A stretch of DNA of 33,540 nucleotides from Candidatus Parcubacteria bacterium (GTDB lineage: Bacteria; Patescibacteriota; Minisyncoccia; JAHIHE01; JAGLIN01). The stretch is from positions 1 to 33,540 of the forward strand of contig JAGLXN010000039.1 of NCBI GenBank assembly GCA_023132875.1, in the 5' to 3' direction. This document shows positions 6,563 to 31,671 of the stretch, one piece after another (the stretch's first letter is position 1; every line of letters starts with the position of its first letter). The position numbers and the translations under genes were made by a program. The notes beneath the pieces were generated by a model, which was not told where the DNA came from, searched no databases, and saw nothing but the letters and a program-made list of their open reading frames with translations.

Positions 6563-6622
6563 AATAATGATATCAAACTCATTAGATTTATATTATAGGA
6601 ACCTCTGAAAAACGCAGTTTTT

Positions 6623-6825
6623 GTCATCCTGAACTTGTTTCAGGATCTTCTATCTATTATGCTATTTTATCCTATAAATCACTAGCCATTTGAATAAGTT
6701 GATAATACAATGATTGTATTCTTATAATAAAGATAATAGCATTTTCGCTTTAGATGAAAGATAATATTAAATAGAATAAATTAAAACATAAAATAACAAA
6801 GATTCTGAAACAAGTTCAGAATGAC
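6623..6825. repeat. MITE-like palindromic element GTCATCCTGAACTTGTTTCAGGATCTT...AAGATTCTGAAACAAGTTCAGAATGAC
   Basis: 27-bp imperfect inverted termini; same family as 18060-18217. Confidence 0.85.
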
Positions 6826-6916
6826 AGGTTTTCGATGATGACACTATTCTGTCAGTGAATCAGTAAACATTTGCAGGAATGACAATATAACAATATAACA
6901 ATACAACAATGTAATA

Positions 6917-9287: not shown

Positions 9288-10229
9288 ATGACTGTAAAAG
9301 AAACTTTGAGTAAAGAAAGAAAAATAATAATAATTGCGGTTTTTATTATGTTTTTACTACTGACTTTATTTTACAAATGGCAGCTTATAACTTCAAGCGG
9401 ATATTTATTTCTCGGGAACGAAAGCTATAAAAGTAAAGATTATGATGAATCTCTGAAAAACTATAAATACGCGGCAGCTATTGATGGTAATAGGAATACA
9501 ACATACCTAGCCAAGCTAAAAAGGTCAGAAATATTTTATTCGCATGGACTGCTAGACGAAGCAGAAAAAGAATTAAAAATGGCAATAAAAGAAATAAAAA
9601 ATGATTTCAAGGCATACGAAGTTATGGGCGATGTTTATTACGCAAAAAGAGATATTTCTGATTCCATAAGCTGTTATGAAAAAGCTATTGAGCTGAAAGA
9701 TAAAGAAGAAATAAACATTAAATTGGCAAAAAGTTTTATGGCGGAAGGAAATATCGGCAAGGCTAATGATATTTTTTTAAAGTTATATTCAGAAAACAAT
9801 CACAACATTGCAATTTCGTATTATTTGGGACTTCTTGACTTTTATAGAAATGAATCTTATAATGATTATTTTCAAGAGGTTGAAAAAGTCAATGACGCGA
9901 ATTATAAAGAAAAAATCAATAAAATTAAAGAGTATTTGGATAATTATGGCAATATAAAAAATGAAGTTTATAGTAATATTTTAATTGCGGATTTGTATAA
10001 CACAATAAATGAACCATATTTGGCTATTGGGAAAAGCGAACTGGCAATAAATGAAAGTCCAGATTATAGGGACGCTTTTATCGTGCTAGGCAAGTCTAAT
10101 TTTATAATAGGGGATTATAAAAAATCTTATGAAAGTTTTAATAAAGCGTTTGAGCTTGACAGCCACAATCCAGAGATAAGTTTTTGGCTAGGAAGTGTTT
10201 ATGAAAAATTAGACCCCGTCCATAAATAA
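9288..10229 (+). CDS. TPR-repeat membrane-anchored protein, 3' end altered by an inserted palindromic element
   Basis: N-terminal TM, repeated TPR signatures; last residues DPVHK are encoded by the inserted element (10212-10366). Confidence 0.85.
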   Translation: MTVKETLSKERKIIIIAVFIMFLLLTLFYKWQLITSSGYLFLGNESYKSKDYDESLKNYKYAAAIDGNRNTTYLAKLKRSEIFYSHGLLDEAEKELKMAIKEIKNDFKAYEVMGDVYYAKRDISDSISCYEKAIELKDKEEINIKLAKSFMAEGNIGKANDIFLKLYSENNHNIAISYYLGLLDFYRNESYNDYFQEVEKVNDANYKEKINKIKEYLDNYGNIKNEVYSNILIADLYNTINEPYLAIGKSELAINESPDYRDAFIVLGKSNFIIGDYKKSYESFNKAFELDSHNPEISFWLGSVYEKLDPVHK

Positions 10230-10366
10230 CATTCTCAAGTTTACTCAGATTTGCGTCAGATTGGTTTGAAAAAAAATGAAGAATATTGCTATATACTGAA
10301 AGTTTTTTCAAACCAAGATGGCGTGAAGATGAGATGAAATTGTGGAGGTTATTTATGGACGGGGTC
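10212..10366. mobile_element. 155-bp MITE-like element with 19-bp perfect TIRs and TTA target duplication
   Basis: GACCCCGTCCATAAATAAC (10212-10230) and reverse complement (10348-10366); TTA on both sides; inner inverted repeat TTGGTTTGAAAAAA/TTTTTTCAAACCAA. Confidence 0.85.
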
Positions 10367-10506
10367 TTAGGCAATGATTTAAAAGCCCATGAATTTATGG
10401 ACAAATATAGAACATTGGCAAATGAATTATGAATTATGAATTAAGAATAAATATATAGTGCGTTGAAATAAAACTTTGCATAGGGCAAAGTCTTTTTAAT
10501 TTTTTT

Positions 10507-10621
10507 GTCATTCTGAGGAGGGACGACGAAGAATCCCGAATCTATTCTCACAAAATCTTCTATTACATAATATGAAATTTCTTACGGGATCTTTCAATCG
10601 CTATCGCTCTCTCAGGATGAC
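10507..10621. repeat. Palindromic repeat GTCATTCTGAGGAGG...CTCAGGATGAC
   Basis: Termini match the copies at 27452-27568 and 29463-29580; internal CTTCTATTACATAAT shared with the copy near 29515. Confidence 0.85.
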
Positions 10622-10661
10622 AGAATAATAAAAAGCGTATAAGTCATAAACTCCATAATTA

Positions 10662-15165: not shown

Positions 15166-17997
15166 ATGAATAAACCTAAAAAACTAATCCTAATTGACGC
15201 GAATGCGCTTATGCATAGGGCGTATCATGCTTTGCCGCCGCTAACGACAAAAAAGGGCGAGATGGTCAACGCTGTTTACGGATTTACCTCCGTGCTTTTA
15301 AAAGTGATTAAAGACTTGAAGCCGGACTATATGATTTGCGCTTTTGATGTTGCTGGAGGAACTTTTCGCGACAAGATTTACGATGAATATAAAGCAGGCA
15401 GAGCAAAGCCTGATCAAGAATTTTATGATCAGATTCCAAAAATAAAAGAAGTGGTAAATGTTCTTAATATTCCAATTATAGAAAAAAAAGGGTTTGAGGC
15501 CGATGATATAATTGGCACGCTTGCAAGTAGAAATTGGAAATTGGAAATTGGAAATTGGAAAACGATCATTGTAACAGGCGATTTAGACGCTTTGCAATTG
15601 ATTGATAAGGGTACGGAAGTTTACACTTTGCGGAAAGGAATAAAAGATACCGTAATCTATGACGAGAAGGCTGTTCAAGAAAGATATGGCTTGAAGCCAA
15701 ATCAAATTATTGATTTTAAAGGATTACGCGGTGATCCGTCTGACAATATTCCCGGAATTAAGGGTATCGGCGAAAAAGGAGCGATAGATCTTTTGCAGAA
15801 ATTTGGTTCTATAGAAAAAATTTATCAAGCGGTTGAAAAAGATAAAGCAGGTGATTTAATAAAACCAAAAATTAAAGAAAAATTGATTGCGCAAAAAAAA
15901 GAAGCGTTAATGAGCAAGGAGCTGGCAACTATAAAGCGCGATATGGACATAAAATTAGATTTGGAAGATTGTGTCTGGGGGGATTATGATAGATCTGAGT
16001 TGATTAGATTATTCAGAGAGCTGGAATTTTATAGTTTGATAAAAAGGGTTGAAGAAGCAAACAACAATAAGAATAATGAATCAAGAATTAAGGATCAAGA
16101 AAGCGGCAAAAAATATATTAAATATATAATTTTAGATGCGGACGAGAAGGTGGATAAGTTTTTGGCGGAATTAAAAAAGCAAAAAAGATTTGTTTTTCAG
16201 ACGAGAAGCAGCGAGGATAATGTGAGCCAGATAGATTTGACTGGAATGGTTTTTATGTGGAAAACAAGTCCAATGTATTATGTGCCACTGGTTCTTAAAG
16301 ATAACAAACCGAATTTGTTCAATACTTCTGTCTTAGCAGTGAACTCTTCTCTTGAAAAGCTAAAGCCTATTTTAGAAAATGAAAGATATAAAAAAATAGG
16401 GTATTTTTTCAAACGCGATATAGAAGCGCTTTACAACCACAATATAGACATAAAAGGGCTTGATTTCGATATGATGTTAGCTGCATATTTGCTTGATCCG
16501 GGGAAAAGGGATTATAGTAAAGATAAAATAATTTTTGATTATTTAGGGCATAGAGGAAATATAGAGATTGAAGATGAAAACGAAATTAGAGAAAAGATAA
16601 AAAATGCCAGTGAGGTTGCAAAACTCAGCCACTTTTTTGAACTTTATGAGATTCTCAAGAAAAAGCTGAAAAAATCGGAAATGGAGGATCTATTTTATAA
16701 AATTGAAATGCCTCTTGTAAAAATACTGGTAAAGATGGAAATGAAAGGTATTAATTTAGACGTGAAACTTTTAAAAGTTCTCTCAGATGAATTGTCAAAC
16801 AAGATTTTTGAATTGGAAGAAAAAATTCATACTCTTTCTGGTGATAAAAGCTTTAATATAAATTCCTCTCAACAATTATCACAGGTTTTATTTGGAAAGA
16901 TGAAATTATCTACGAAAGAAATTAAAAAGACCCAGACGGGATATTCGGTTGCCGCTACGGAACTTGAAAAACTTAAAGAAGAACACATTATAATAAGTTT
17001 TATTTCTGAATATAAAGAGCTTGTAAAACTAAAAAATACTTATGTTGATGCTTTGCCAAAACTTGTAAGTAAAAAAACTGGCAGGCTTCACACAACATTT
17101 AATCAAACTGTAACAGCTACAGGACGGCTTTCATCTTCAAATCCTAATTTGCAGAATATTCCAATTAGAACTGAAATTGGCAGGAAGATTAGAAAAGCTT
17201 TTATCGCGGAGACTGGCAGAAAGCTTGTTTCCGCGGATTATTCGCAAATTGAGCTTCGCGTTATAGCTATGGTCGCGGATGACAAGAAAATGAAGGAAAT
17301 ATTCAATAAAGGATTAGATATTCATGCCGCAACGGCTGCTGAAGTAAATCAAGTTCCACTTGAAGAAGTAACTTCTCAAATGAGAAGATCTGCCAAAGCG
17401 TTAAATTTTGGCGTAATCTATGGGATGGGTGTTTTTGGATTTGCGCGGTCTGCTGGAATTGAGAGAGATAAAGCTAAGGAATTTATAGAAAATTATATGA
17501 AAAAATTTTCCGGTGTTGCCGAGTATATAGAAAAATCCAAAGAAGACGCGAGGAAAATCGGATATGCTCAAACAATTTGGGGCCGCAGAAGGTATCTTCC
17601 AGAGCTAAATTCATCAAATGCTATGGTAAAAAATTCGGCAGAAAGAATGGCAATCAATATGCCGATTCAGGGAGCCGCAGCTGATGTTATAAAAATAGCA
17701 ATGCTTAAAATTGATAAATGGATTGATGAATATAATAATAAGAATAAAGGTATTGAAGAAACTGAGCTTCCAATTGAAAGCTCAGTTTCTGATGATGCTA
17801 TAAAACTTCTCTTGCAAGTCCATGATGAATTATTATTTTCTGTAAAGGAAGAAAATGTTTCTAAAGTTGCAGAAAATATCAGAGAAATTATGGAAAATTG
17901 TCATCTGAGCCTAGACGGCAAAAAAATAGATTTTCCAGTGCCGATTATAGTTGATATAAAAGCAGGGGATAATTGGGAGGAGATGACGAGCATTTAA
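15166..17997 (+). CDS. polA: DNA polymerase I
   Basis: N-terminal 5' nuclease domain ('IDANALMHRAYHALPPLTT'), C-terminal family A polymerase ('SADYSQIELRVIAMVADD', 'RRSAKALNFGVIYGMG', 'LLQVHDELLFSV'). Confidence 0.97.
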   Translation: MNKPKKLILIDANALMHRAYHALPPLTTKKGEMVNAVYGFTSVLLKVIKDLKPDYMICAFDVAGGTFRDKIYDEYKAGRAKPDQEFYDQIPKIKEVVNVLNIPIIEKKGFEADDIIGTLASRNWKLEIGNWKTIIVTGDLDALQLIDKGTEVYTLRKGIKDTVIYDEKAVQERYGLKPNQIIDFKGLRGDPSDNIPGIKGIGEKGAIDLLQKFGSIEKIYQAVEKDKAGDLIKPKIKEKLIAQKKEALMSKELATIKRDMDIKLDLEDCVWGDYDRSELIRLFRELEFYSLIKRVEEANNNKNNESRIKDQESGKKYIKYIILDADEKVDKFLAELKKQKRFVFQTRSSEDNVSQIDLTGMVFMWKTSPMYYVPLVLKDNKPNLFNTSVLAVNSSLEKLKPILENERYKKIGYFFKRDIEALYNHNIDIKGLDFDMMLAAYLLDPGKRDYSKDKIIFDYLGHRGNIEIEDENEIREKIKNASEVAKLSHFFELYEILKKKLKKSEMEDLFYKIEMPLVKILVKMEMKGINLDVKLLKVLSDELSNKIFELEEKIHTLSGDKSFNINSSQQLSQVLFGKMKLSTKEIKKTQTGYSVAATELEKLKEEHIIISFISEYKELVKLKNTYVDALPKLVSKKTGRLHTTFNQTVTATGRLSSSNPNLQNIPIRTEIGRKIRKAFIAETGRKLVSADYSQIELRVIAMVADDKKMKEIFNKGLDIHAATAAEVNQVPLEEVTSQMRRSAKALNFGVIYGMGVFGFARSAGIERDKAKEFIENYMKKFSGVAEYIEKSKEDARKIGYAQTIWGRRRYLPELNSSNAMVKNSAERMAINMPIQGAAADVIKIAMLKIDKWIDEYNNKNKGIEETELPIESSVSDDAIKLLLQVHDELLFSVKEENVSKVAENIREIMENCHLSLDGKKIDFPVPIIVDIKAGDNWEEMTSI
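15531..15558 (+). repeat. 4 x AAATTGG heptamer array inside polA
   Basis: Four perfect tandem copies; encodes NWKLEIGNW. Confidence 0.95.
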
Positions 17998-18059
17998 ACA
18001 TTTTAACATACTAACATTTTAACAATTTCTAATTTTTAAATAAGAGATGCGGAGCGTCT

Positions 18060-18217
18060 GTCATCCTGAATTTATTTCAGAATCTTCTATTTATTACGAT
18101 AAACTAACCTATAAATCTTTAAAATTTTAGATTAAGCTAAAACGAAAGAGCAAGTTTATTGAGTATAATATAAATCAATGTAGCATGCGATAGATCCTGA
18201 AATAAATTCAGGATGAC
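18060..18217. repeat. MITE-like palindromic element GTCATCCTGAATTTATTTCAG...CTGAAATAAATTCAGGATGAC
   Basis: About 25-bp inverted termini; internal CTATTTATTACG...CCTATAAATC resembles the 6623-6825 copy. Confidence 0.85.
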
Positions 18218-18274
18218 ATCTCTAAAATTGCGTAATTTAAAGTTATTTTAAATAAATACTAATTAGCATTAATT

Positions 18275-25358: not shown

Positions 25359-26666
25359 ATGATAATTGTAGCGATAGAGACATCGTGCGATGAAACAGCG
25401 GTTGCTATAGTAAAATTTAGTAGGAATAGGGCAGAAGTTTTATCTAATATTATTTCATCTCAAGTAAAGGCGCACAGCAAATATGGCGGGGTTGTGCCGT
25501 CTTTGGCGTCAAGAATGCATTTAAAAAATATGGTTCCGGTTTTGAAAAGGGCATTTAAGCAAGCTGAGAAACACACCCCTGCCCCTCTCAAGAGGGGAAT
25601 TCATTTCGACAAAAATAAAATTGATTATGTTGCAGTGACTAATGGACCTGGTTTAATCCCAGCATTAATGATTGGAGTTAATACAGCTAAATCATTGTCT
25701 TACGCGCTAAACAAACCATTAGTCGGCATTCATCATATTGAAGGGCATATATACGCGAATTGGTTGAAAAAGAATCTGGAATCTGGAATCTGGAATCTGG
25801 AAAATAAGAAACAAAAAGTGAAAAATGAAAAATTGAAGATGCAAAAGTTAGAAGATTCCAAATTCCAAAATTACGATCTATGGAAACCGGAATTTCCAAT
25901 TTTATGCCTTACAGTATCGGGCGGGCATACGCAATTAATTTTAATGAAGAAAGATTTGAATTATAAAATAATAGGTGAGACCATGGACGATGCGGCTGGC
26001 GAAGCGTTTGATAAAATTGCCAAGCTTTTAAATCTTGGTTATCCAGGCGGACCGCTGGTTGAAAAAATGGCTAAGAAGGGAGATAGGAATAAATTCAAGT
26101 TTACAAGACCTATGATAAACAGTAAGGATTATAATTTTAGTTTTTCTGGACTTAAGACAGCGGTTTTATATGAGGTTAGATCGCGGCAAACTTTTTCTCA
26201 CCTCGATTCCTGCCTGCCGGACAGGCAAGCTCTCCCAGAAGGAGAGAGAGTTAATTCCAAATTCTCCGCCCGAGGCGGACCAGCCTTGGGCTGGCAAATT
26301 CTCCGCCCGAGGCGGACCAGCCTTGGGCTGGCAAATTCCAAGTTCAAATCTGACATTGCAGCATCTTTCCAGCAGGCAGTAATTGATGTTTTAGTTTTTA
26401 AAACTATAAAAGCGGCGAAACAATATAAAGCAAAAAATATTATTCTCGGCGGCGGAGTGTCGGCGAATAGAGAATTACAGAAGCAATTTAAAAAAGCCAT
26501 AAATAAAGAATTACCAAATACTGAATACCAAATACTGAATACTAATCTATCAACCGACAATGCTTTTATGATTGCGATTGCGGCATATTATCGCATAAAA
26601 AATGATAAGGGAATTGGAAATTGGAAGAATATTAAGGCGGACGCGAATCTAAAAATAGAATCATGA
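25359..26666 (+). CDS. tsaD: tRNA N6-adenosine threonylcarbamoyltransferase TsaD, with repeat-derived in-frame inserts
   Basis: 'AIETSCDETAVAIV', 'VAVTNGPGLIPALMIGVNTAKSLSYALNKPLVGIHHIEGHIYAN', 'CLTVSGGHTQLILM', 'GGGVSANRELQ'. Confidence 0.96.
   Translation: MIIVAIETSCDETAVAIVKFSRNRAEVLSNIISSQVKAHSKYGGVVPSLASRMHLKNMVPVLKRAFKQAEKHTPAPLKRGIHFDKNKIDYVAVTNGPGLIPALMIGVNTAKSLSYALNKPLVGIHHIEGHIYANWLKKNLESGIWNLENKKQKVKNEKLKMQKLEDSKFQNYDLWKPEFPILCLTVSGGHTQLILMKKDLNYKIIGETMDDAAGEAFDKIAKLLNLGYPGGPLVEKMAKKGDRNKFKFTRPMINSKDYNFSFSGLKTAVLYEVRSRQTFSHLDSCLPDRQALPEGERVNSKFSARGGPALGWQILRPRRTSLGLANSKFKSDIAASFQQAVIDVLVFKTIKAAKQYKAKNIILGGGVSANRELQKQFKKAINKELPNTEYQILNTNLSTDNAFMIAIAAYYRIKNDKGIGNWKNIKADANLKIES
25773..25800 (+). 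repeat. 4 x AATCTGG heptamer array inside tsaD
   Basis: Four perfect tandem copies. Confidence 0.95.
26259..26332. repeat. Two identical tandem 37-bp twin-hairpin units inside tsaD
   Basis: aaattctCCGCCCGAGGCGGACCAGCCTTGGGCTGGc repeated exactly twice. Confidence 0.95.
26514..26541 (+). repeat. Heptamer array (CCAAATA CTGAATA)x2 inside tsaD
   Basis: Four 7-nt units alternating between two variants. Confidence 0.9.
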
Positions 26667-28033
26667 ATTATAAACAACATAATTCTATGGAAATAATTAA
26701 TGTCGGCGAAGAACAAAAAGAAATATGGAATAAATTCATAGCTGAAAACAATTCAGAAAGTTTTTTGCAGTCTTGGGAATGGGGAGAGTTTCAGAGCAAA
26801 ATTGGACGTAAGGTATGGAGAATCGGAATTGCTAATGATGATTTATCTGATGAAAATAGAACAAAAGTATCAAGTATCAAGTATCAAGTATCAAGCGACA
26901 ATTTGGTTGTCGTGGCTTTGATCGTAAAACACGATTTGCCGTTTGGACAGAGTTATTTGTATTGTCCTCGCGGACCAGTCATAGAAAAATCAAAAATCAA
27001 AAATCAAAAATCAAAATTTTTTGATGTTTTATTTGACGAAATTAAAAAAATTACTGAAGAAGAAAAAAGTTTGTTTTTGAAAATTGATCCGCCGATTAAA
27101 ATGAATCAGGAATCAGGAATCAGGAATCATGAATATTTTACTAATTTCAAAAAATCATCATCAGAAATTCAGCCGAGAGATACTTTAATTTTGGATATTA
27201 CAAAATCGGAAGAAGAATTATTGAAAGACATGAAGCAGAAGACAAGGTATAATATTCGGCTGGCAGGAAAGAAAGAGTTACGAATTACGAATTACGAGCT
27301 ACGAACGGATAATAAAAAAGTTTTTAAGGAAAAGTTTGAAAAATTTTGGGATTTGATCAAGGAGACTTCTAGGCGCGACAAGTTTGTTTCTCACAGCAAG
27401 GATTATTATTGGAAAATGTTTGAGAGCTTAAACAATAATTATTCTAAGAATGTCATTCTGAGGAGGAACGACGAAGAATCCCGAAGCTATACACACAAAA
27501 CTGTGGTACAAAATTATACAGTGTTAAATTCGGGATCCTTCGACTCGCTATCGCTTGCTCAGGATGACAGTACGCGTATCGGTAACAATTCTAATTTAAT
27601 TGCGAGATTATATCTCGCTGAATATGACAATAAAATCATCGCAGCAAACCTTGTCTTGTTTTTTGGAGATATGGCGGTCTATCTTCACGGAGCATCGTCT
27701 AATGAATATAGGAATGTGATGGCGCCGTATTCATTGCAATGGCGGCAGATTCTAGACGCAAAAGAGGCTGGATGCAAAAAGTATGACTTTTGGGGTGTGT
27801 CGGCAACGGTTCGACAGGCTCACCATGACATTCATCGACAGGCTCACTGTGACAATGGTGTCATCCTGAGCTTGTCGAAGGATAAAAAAGATACTTGGAG
27901 CGGCATTACAAGATTTAAAAAAGGGTTTGGCGGTTATGAGAAAAATTATATTGGCGCGTACGACCTGATTTTTAGCAATATCGGATATCGGATATATGGG
28001 TTTTTAAAGAGGATAAAGGATATTGTAACTTAA
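26663..28033 (+). CDS. FemAB-like peptidyltransferase (peptidoglycan bridge formation family) with multiple repeat-derived in-frame inserts
   Basis: 'ESFLQSWEWGEFQSKIGRKVWRIG', 'MKQKTRYNIRLAGKK', 'FFGDMAVYLHGASSNEYRNVMAPYSLQWRQILDAKEAGCKKYDFWG', 'GITRFKKGFGG'. Start may be 26687. Confidence 0.92.
   Translation: MNYKQHNSMEIINVGEEQKEIWNKFIAENNSESFLQSWEWGEFQSKIGRKVWRIGIANDDLSDENRTKVSSIKYQVSSDNLVVVALIVKHDLPFGQSYLYCPRGPVIEKSKIKNQKSKFFDVLFDEIKKITEEEKSLFLKIDPPIKMNQESGIRNHEYFTNFKKSSSEIQPRDTLILDITKSEEELLKDMKQKTRYNIRLAGKKELRITNYELRTDNKKVFKEKFEKFWDLIKETSRRDKFVSHSKDYYWKMFESLNNNYSKNVILRRNDEESRSYTHKTVVQNYTVLNSGSFDSLSLAQDDSTRIGNNSNLIARLYLAEYDNKIIAANLVLFFGDMAVYLHGASSNEYRNVMAPYSLQWRQILDAKEAGCKKYDFWGVSATVRQAHHDIHRQAHCDNGVILSLSKDKKDTWSGITRFKKGFGGYEKNYIGAYDLIFSNIGYRIYGFLKRIKDIVT
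26865..26892 (+). repeat. 4 x AAGTATC heptamer array in femAB-like gene
   Basis: Four perfect copies. Confidence 0.95.
26985..27012 (+). repeat. 4 x AAAAATC heptamer array in femAB-like gene
   Basis: Four perfect copies. Confidence 0.95.
27104..27131 (+). repeat. Heptamer array (AATCAGG x3 + AATCATG) in femAB-like gene
   Basis: Four units, the last with changes. Confidence 0.9.
27278..27305 (+). repeat. Heptamer array (TTACGAA x2, TTACGAG, CTACGAA) in femAB-like gene
   Basis: Four 7-nt units. Confidence 0.9.
27452..27568. repeat. 117-bp palindromic element inside femAB-like gene
   Basis: GTCATTCTGAGGAGGAACGACGAAGAATCCCG...CGGGATCCTTCGACTCGCTATCGCTTGCTCAGGATGAC, same family as 10507-10621. 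Confidence 0.93.
27807..27882. repeat. Second palindromic repeat cluster inside femAB-like gene
   Basis: GGTTCGACAGGCTCACCATGAC / TCGACAGGCTCACTGTGAC / GTCATCCTGAGCTTGTCGAAGGA inverted units. Boundaries approximate. Confidence 0.85.
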
Positions 28034-31244: not shown

Positions 31245-31283
31245 AATTGTTAGACAGAAAATAAATCACAAATTCAAAATTAT

Positions 31284-31360
31284 CCTCCCGAGGCGGACCA
31301 GCCTCGGGCTGGCAAATTCCAAATAAATTCTCAGCCCAAGGCTGATCCGCCTCGGGCGGA
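31284..31360. repeat. Inverted pair of twin-hairpin units
   Basis: CCTCCCGAGGCGGACCAGCCTCGGGCTGGC and TCAGCCCAAGGCTGATCCGCCTCGGGCGGA. Confidence 0.85.
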
Positions 31361-31671
31361 AAAATTCAAATATTCAAAATTTTAAACTGTTTATAGTTTT
31401 GAACATTTGAATTTATTTTTTTTGTCATCCTTGTGAATACGGAGATCCAGAATAAATATCATCTAAATCTATATTACAATTTTATGAAACTGACTGGATT
31501 CCCGCCGGAGTTTATGCTGAATTCAGTTCAGTGCGGGAATGACAACACGCGCTTGTTAAAACTAACGGGATTCCATTTTTCAAGGGAATGACAAATAGGT
31601 TTAAACATTAAGTTATTAGAAATTAAAACATTCAATCATAATTCAAATATTCAAAATTCTATGCGGTATGC

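Follow-up and report, generated by a model that had tools for sequence, protein, structure and literature searches.

Reviews of bacterial MITEs describe extensive base pairing of their transcripts as a general feature, with an orientation-dependent RNA effect in ERIC and RNase III processing in Correia elements (PMC2229807; PMC10969869). Several described systems resemble the 155-bp element reported here. ERIC/IRU (127 bp, Enterobacteriaceae) is likewise a small, intergenic, imperfect palindrome forming a single long hairpin, with an AT-containing target duplication and no known partner transposase. Correia/NEMIS elements of Neisseria are comparable in size (107-155 bp), in having terminal inverted repeats (TIRs) and a target-site duplication (TSD), and in their stem-loop transcripts (PMC2229807), but differ, by description alone, in their TA-type ends, the IHF site of their 155-bp form, and their host. 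REPINs of the REP-RAYT system are non-autonomous long hairpins with compensatory stem changes (PMC3116915), whereas our element has no GTAG foot, paired REP sequences, or linked Y1 gene, and does have a 3-bp duplication. Rickettsia palindromic elements (RPEs) are ~150-bp palindromes that lie within protein genes and alter the product (PMC10969869); whereas an RPE leaves the reading frame open and codes for a peptide, the element described here stops its gene after five codons, and almost all of its copies lie between genes. Our literature searches turned up no report of a MITE family in Patescibacteria/CPR and no description of the 155-bp element family.

We consider it likely that this palindrome represents a young copy of a MITE that is non-autonomous, folds into a hairpin, has so far turned up in a single Ca. 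Paceibacterota family, is mobilised by a DDE transposase, and is selected through its folded + strand. It extends long-hairpin MITEs of the ERIC-like type to a new phylum and works like ERIC without being an ERIC, because sequence, length, and target duplication differ: it measures 155 bp, duplicates TWA (3 bp) where ERIC duplicates TA, is confined so far to one Paceibacterota family, and has no detected sequence relationship with ERIC. The MITE entered a TTA close to where a TPR gene ends, duplicating three bases, and its terminal repeat brought in an in-frame stop, so that the last 20 residues of the TPR protein were swapped for DPVHK. In the mechanism we propose, it would have been mobilised in trans by an IS5-superfamily DDE transposase now lost from the genome or missing in the assembly, and its folded + strand would be under selection, more likely as a transcript than as single-stranded DNA.

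The stretch of DNA analysed (the window, 33,540 nucleotides) is contig C33 of genome G000 (1.13 Mb). The features of the locus, with the basis for each where one applies, are:

9288-10229, + strand: TPR-repeat protein gene as now read, 313 aa, the last five codons (DPVHK) and stop being element-derived (ORF list; Pfam TPR_2/TPR_11; orthologues)
10209-10211, + strand: target duplication TTA, left copy (sequence; TSD concordance across copies)
10212-10366, + strand (family orientation +): palindromic mobile element, 155 bp (covariance-model score 186 bits, top of the family)
10212-10230, + strand: left TIR GACCCCGTCCATAAATAAC, comprising a copy-variable tip and the family-conserved AAATAAC box (10224-10230)
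10250-10261, + strand: upper stem, conserved left side, which includes a tandem G-A internal loop as well as tandem U-G/G-U pairs and has its partner at ~10317-10329 (fold, conserved columns)
10261-10316, + strand: apical hairpin, arms 10261-10274 and 10303-10316 plus loop stem (fold)
10348-10366, - strand: right TIR, exact reverse complement of the left GACCCCGTCCATAAATAAC
10367-10369, + strand: target duplication TTA, right copy (sequence)
10370-10432, + strand: TPR gene, displaced 3' end (GNDLKAHEFMDKYRTLANEL*), now untranslated as part of the TPR protein (flank joining, orthologues, G002 empty site)

A preliminary description had proposed a 155-bp MITE-like palindrome with 19-bp perfect TIRs, flanked by TTA on both sides and forming a long imperfect hairpin, and the sequence and repeat analyses bear this out. 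The inner arms were located (TTGGTTTGAAAAAA at 10261-10274, TTTTTTCAAACCAA at 10303-10316), and the + strand folds as RNA at -78.9 kcal/mol, compared with -29.6 +/- 3.8 in dinucleotide shuffles (z = -13). The palindrome is far above chance, its core recurring ~30 times in five genomes. It holds no transposase ORF, and, as had been reported for the window, none was seen among the window ORFs (10 ORFs by Pfam, the remainder by eye). Rfam returned nothing at gathering score for the element, the low scorers being generic hairpins (e.g. a miRNA precursor at 40 bits versus a cut-off of 230), and a known RNA family was therefore rejected as its identity. A promoter search inside the element gave weak consensus matches alone, near chance level. 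At the right end of the window copy, a Shine-Dalgarno-like GGAGG lies 6 nt 5' of an ATG in frame with the displaced tail; it is not kept among copies, and we take this apparent translation start to be a coincidence.

The TPR reading frame now ends ...YEKL-DPVHK*, the stop being supplied by the terminal repeat (GAC CCC GTC CAT AAA TAA), so the element-encoded ending recognised earlier stands. When the element and one TTA are removed in silico, the frame continues to ...YEKLGNDLKAHEFMDKYRTLANEL*, with 20 further residues before the stop. Ten close orthologues of the TPR protein (46-55% identity) were found within the same family, none with the element, and no orthologue was found in G004. Five of them (G002, G006, G008, G009, and G011) have tails alignable to the displaced tail, GNDLKAHEFMDKYRTLANEL corresponding to GDDLKAKEFLEKIDLLEIRN in G002 and GNNLKAEGFFGKYEALSPRK in G011. 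In G002 the empty site can be read in the DNA, as ...GTTTATGAAAAAATTGGTGATGATTTAAAG... compared with ...GTTTATGAAAAATTA[element]TTAGGCAATGATTTAAAA... in the window, and a second empty site, that of the G004:C56 copy, was found in G008. Given the other copies, the tail-bearing orthologues without the element, and the G002 empty site, the palindrome is an insertion of a MITE-like element; the earlier proposal that it replaced the TPR C-terminus, and that excision restores a natural one, is thus upheld by the in-frame join, the five matching tails, and the empty site. Here a MITE has cleanly truncated a gene, and relatives still preserve the empty site. The TPR proteins of the g8 genomes and G003 naturally stop near the insertion point, and loss of the tail is therefore probably tolerated.

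DNA and covariance-model searches recovered about 30 distinct copies, the further copies for which a search had been suggested, in five genomes of one Ca. Paceibacterota family (nine in G000, twelve in G004, three in G008, five in G010, and one in G011). The element was not found in the other nine genomes of this family, in four of other families in the order, or in 19 more of the class; a degenerate element pattern matched 2-3 times among 85,462 public species genomes, exclusively in Ca. Paceibacterota MAGs, and viral contigs (IMG/VR) gave no match. With the exception of the window copy and G004:C44, where the upstream ORF ends inside the element, the copies are intergenic. The element thus has the characters of prokaryotic MITEs: it is short, non-coding, and dispersed in multiple copies, with TIRs and a TSD. 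Three copies (G000:C9, C26, and C30) constitute a divergent subfamily with ends GGGCTTAAG-AAAAATAAC; its core is clearly distinct from that of the main group, and it retains the tandem U-G/G-U step and the second tandem G-A loop.

The window copy is young: its TTA repeats are identical and its TIRs perfect, the displaced tail is still open, and the insertion is absent from the orthologues found, none of which ends in DPVHK. No other copy comes as near to a hand-made consensus (94%) or scores as high with the covariance model (186 bits). The family is another matter, as G000:C67 and G004:C29 have both flanks in common (~80% identity) and are one insertion, older than the split of two genera; the element family is therefore old though the window copy is young. 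The suggestion of a recent insertion accordingly holds for this copy, with its intact repeats and open tail, and not for the family.

Individual copies also show local peculiarities. In G004:C92 and G004:C56 a short palindrome of the CCTGCCTGCCGACAGGCAGG type is nested in the right arm of the element core, at one and the same position in both copies. The G004:C95 copy immediately precedes a SAM riboswitch (Rfam RF00162), and the G004:C17 copy lies between a similar leader and a gene with a metK-like start. Host DNA beyond the G000:C24 copy is palindromic, with AAAAATACAGTC on both sides at equal distance, and adjoins a tRNA-like sequence; these flanks may have arisen by duplication or may be a hairpin that was there before the insertion.

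In a mechanical reading of the alignment, TTA or TAA stands on both sides of 22 of the 25 better-preserved copies, and the two sides usually agree (TTA/TTA 9, TAA/TAA 9, mixed 4; Fisher p = 0.009). Concordant duplications in 18/25 better-preserved copies, together with the empty sites, establish a 3-bp TWA duplication. HUH transposition is not known to make a target duplication. The concordant TWA duplications therefore indicate a staggered double-strand cut in the style of a DDE transposase and disfavour HUH (Y1) transposition. This bears on the possibility of a REPIN-like element whose folded strand a Y1 (RAYT/HUH) transposase would recognise and move as single-stranded DNA, a mechanism that would directly account for the arm covariation and strand bias described below. 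Y1/RAYT-type genes occur in 13 of the 14 family genomes, including all five hosts, and REPINs commonly show compensatory changes across the hairpin (PMC3116915). We nonetheless judge this mechanism improbable: concordant TTA/TTA and TAA/TAA duplications are not expected of it, Y1 genes are present also in genomes without the element, and the Y1 genes examined have beside them short GTAG-foot REPs of their own or other unrelated short palindromes, and not the element. A search of 34 loci with Y1 or DDE genes using the element model returned an unrelated 67-nt hairpin as top match, and linkage of the element to Y1/RAYT genes was rejected. Several independent REP/RAYT pairs per genome were seen in passing (G004:C35, G010:C81, and G004:C65), each with distinct short REPs, for example GTAGGGACAGGTTT...AAACCTGTCCCTAC.

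The autonomous IS with the same TIRs that the preliminary description had led us to look for was not found in the genomes searched, either by end pattern or by transposase family. DDE_Tnp_1, DDE_Tnp_4, and the NCBIfam IS5 model NF033580 gave no match in any of the five hosts, and scanning the genomes searched for AGGG-n-AAATAAC ends revealed neither ends pairing around a gene nor unexplained paired ends. DDE_Tnp_4 was found only in other genomes of the class, in elements of ~1 kb assigned by NCBIfam, below cut-off, to the IS5 family. These IS5-family (ISL2-like) elements of Paceibacteria and their derived MITEs resemble our element in their ends, AG..(C)TGT...(A)AATAAC, more than shuffles do: among IS5-type ends compared with the element tip profile, such as AGACCTGTTGCTTAATAAC in G009 (same family) and AGACCTCTTGCAAAATAAC in G301, the best two were matched by 0/2000 and 5/2000 shuffles and four others gave 0.02-0.07. 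They share no internal sequence with the element, however, and none occurs in the host genomes. Where their two ends are readable the target duplication appears to be ANT, not TWA, so that they would at best be cousins of the likely partner. Mobilisation by an IS5-type transposase is accordingly a tentative attribution, to which we give a little less than even credence.

The ends of the copies follow TWA-(G)GGnnnGTnnAnAAATAAC, in which the n positions vary between copies and are complementary within a copy. The match between tips is 0.86 within copies and 0.54 between copies (0 of 10,000 permutations), and several paired columns use three or all four Watson-Crick pair types. Tips that differ between copies and match within them, and the palindromic flanks of G000:C24, might be taken to mean that the element targets the middle of palindromes already present in the host, terminators for example, the copy-specific tips being host sequence. 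This is very nearly untenable, as AGGG, GT, and AAATAAC are conserved within the tips across copies; for two copies it is refuted outright, their empty sites (in the TPR gene and in G008) being without tips.

Pairing is also biased towards one strand. In family orientation, the core of the better-preserved copies contains 142 G-U and 13 A-C cells and their tips 24 and 10, whereas four degraded copies show no such bias (20 G-U, 30 A-C), it being important to note that these counts treat related copies as independent and that the division into preserved and degraded was made post hoc, with the data already seen. Comparison of nearest-neighbour copies, which lessens but does not abolish the effect of kinship, gave 117 one-sided differences to G-U and 34 to A-C. 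The inequality argues against strand-symmetric processes (template switching, neutral decay of a DNA palindrome), which predict equality. Correction of quasi-palindromes by template switching is an established mechanism in bacteria, and, acting within the palindrome during replication, it could keep the arms complementary with no structural selection; perfectly complementary tips in several copies (C33, C41, C67, C95, C26, and C30) would be in keeping with it. Being strand-symmetric, however, it cannot yield a G-U excess, and the tips of the C67/C29 pair have diverged independently on the two sides, without concert, which leaves this account very improbable.

As the tips match within copies and the core allows G-U but not A-C, we infer selection on one folded strand, the + strand, probably as RNA and with an RNA transcript more likely than single-stranded DNA. 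The + strand RNA folds more stably than the - strand in 25 of 30 copies, and the tandem UG/GU and tandem GA steps of the upper stem are kept across subfamilies. The same observations, with the G-U bias of core and tips and its absence from the four degraded copies, would suit a different emphasis, in which the hairpin is a functional RNA under selection (a processed read-through transcript or a movement intermediate), its DNA ends are secondary, and the whole is a mobile structured RNA rather than a decayed IS. We hold this to be a serious reading, though a doubtful one. The promoter search gave none; copies have no preferential co-orientation with neighbouring genes (8 sense, 16 antisense), so a role in host mRNA is not favoured; and ERIC copies show a milder stability asymmetry, which may arise as a by-product in MITEs of this kind generally.

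That comparison takes as its yardstick six ERIC copies drawn from plasmid records of enterobacteria. In all six, one strand has the better fold, by 5-16 kcal/mol; G-U pairs stand at 20 versus 10; and the outer stems vary with compensation (ACTC/GAGT, ACCC/GGGT, ACGC/GCGT). ERIC has the traits of our element in milder form, the G-U asymmetry per copy being 4-13 versus 0-4 in preserved copies of the element and 2-4 versus 0-3 in ERIC. We know of no established mechanism for the movement of ERIC. The 30 copies, preserved and decayed, offer a natural data set on whether selection in ERIC-type elements acts on folded RNA or single-stranded DNA or on double-stranded terminal repeats.

The behaviour of the tips deserves attention. 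Tip identity between paralogues averages ~0.50-0.58 for cores from 55% to nearly 90% alike, while the vertically inherited pair C67/C29 retains a tip identity of 0.86-0.93. It is conceivable, though in our estimate unlikely, that the unit both selected and mobilised is the folded single strand (an RNA hairpin or single-stranded DNA), with tips renewed as matched pairs on movement; if so, tip switching would allow one core to ride successive transposases. The data favour, short of showing, that these elements are selected as folded single strands.

Other repeats are present in the window. Another family of palindromic repeats, TGTCATCCTGAA...TTCAGGATGACA, whose inverted ends are separated by 100-200 bp, occurs in at least three places (6622-6826, 10506-10627, and 18059-18218), one copy lying ~140 bp downstream of the 155-bp element. 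A 37-bp unit (CAAATTCTCCGCCCGAGGCGGACCAGCCTTGGGCTGG, 2.2 repeats, 26258-26338) lies inside the tsaD ORF (25359-26666) and leaves the frame unbroken, and a related palindrome recurs at 31272-31371. Tandem arrays of a 7-bp unit, with at least 4 copies each, are located within polA-like, tsaD, and FemAB-like ORFs (15530-15561, 25772-25802, 26865-26895, 26985-27016, and 27103-27134); as 7 is not a multiple of 3, changes in array copy number would shift the frame.
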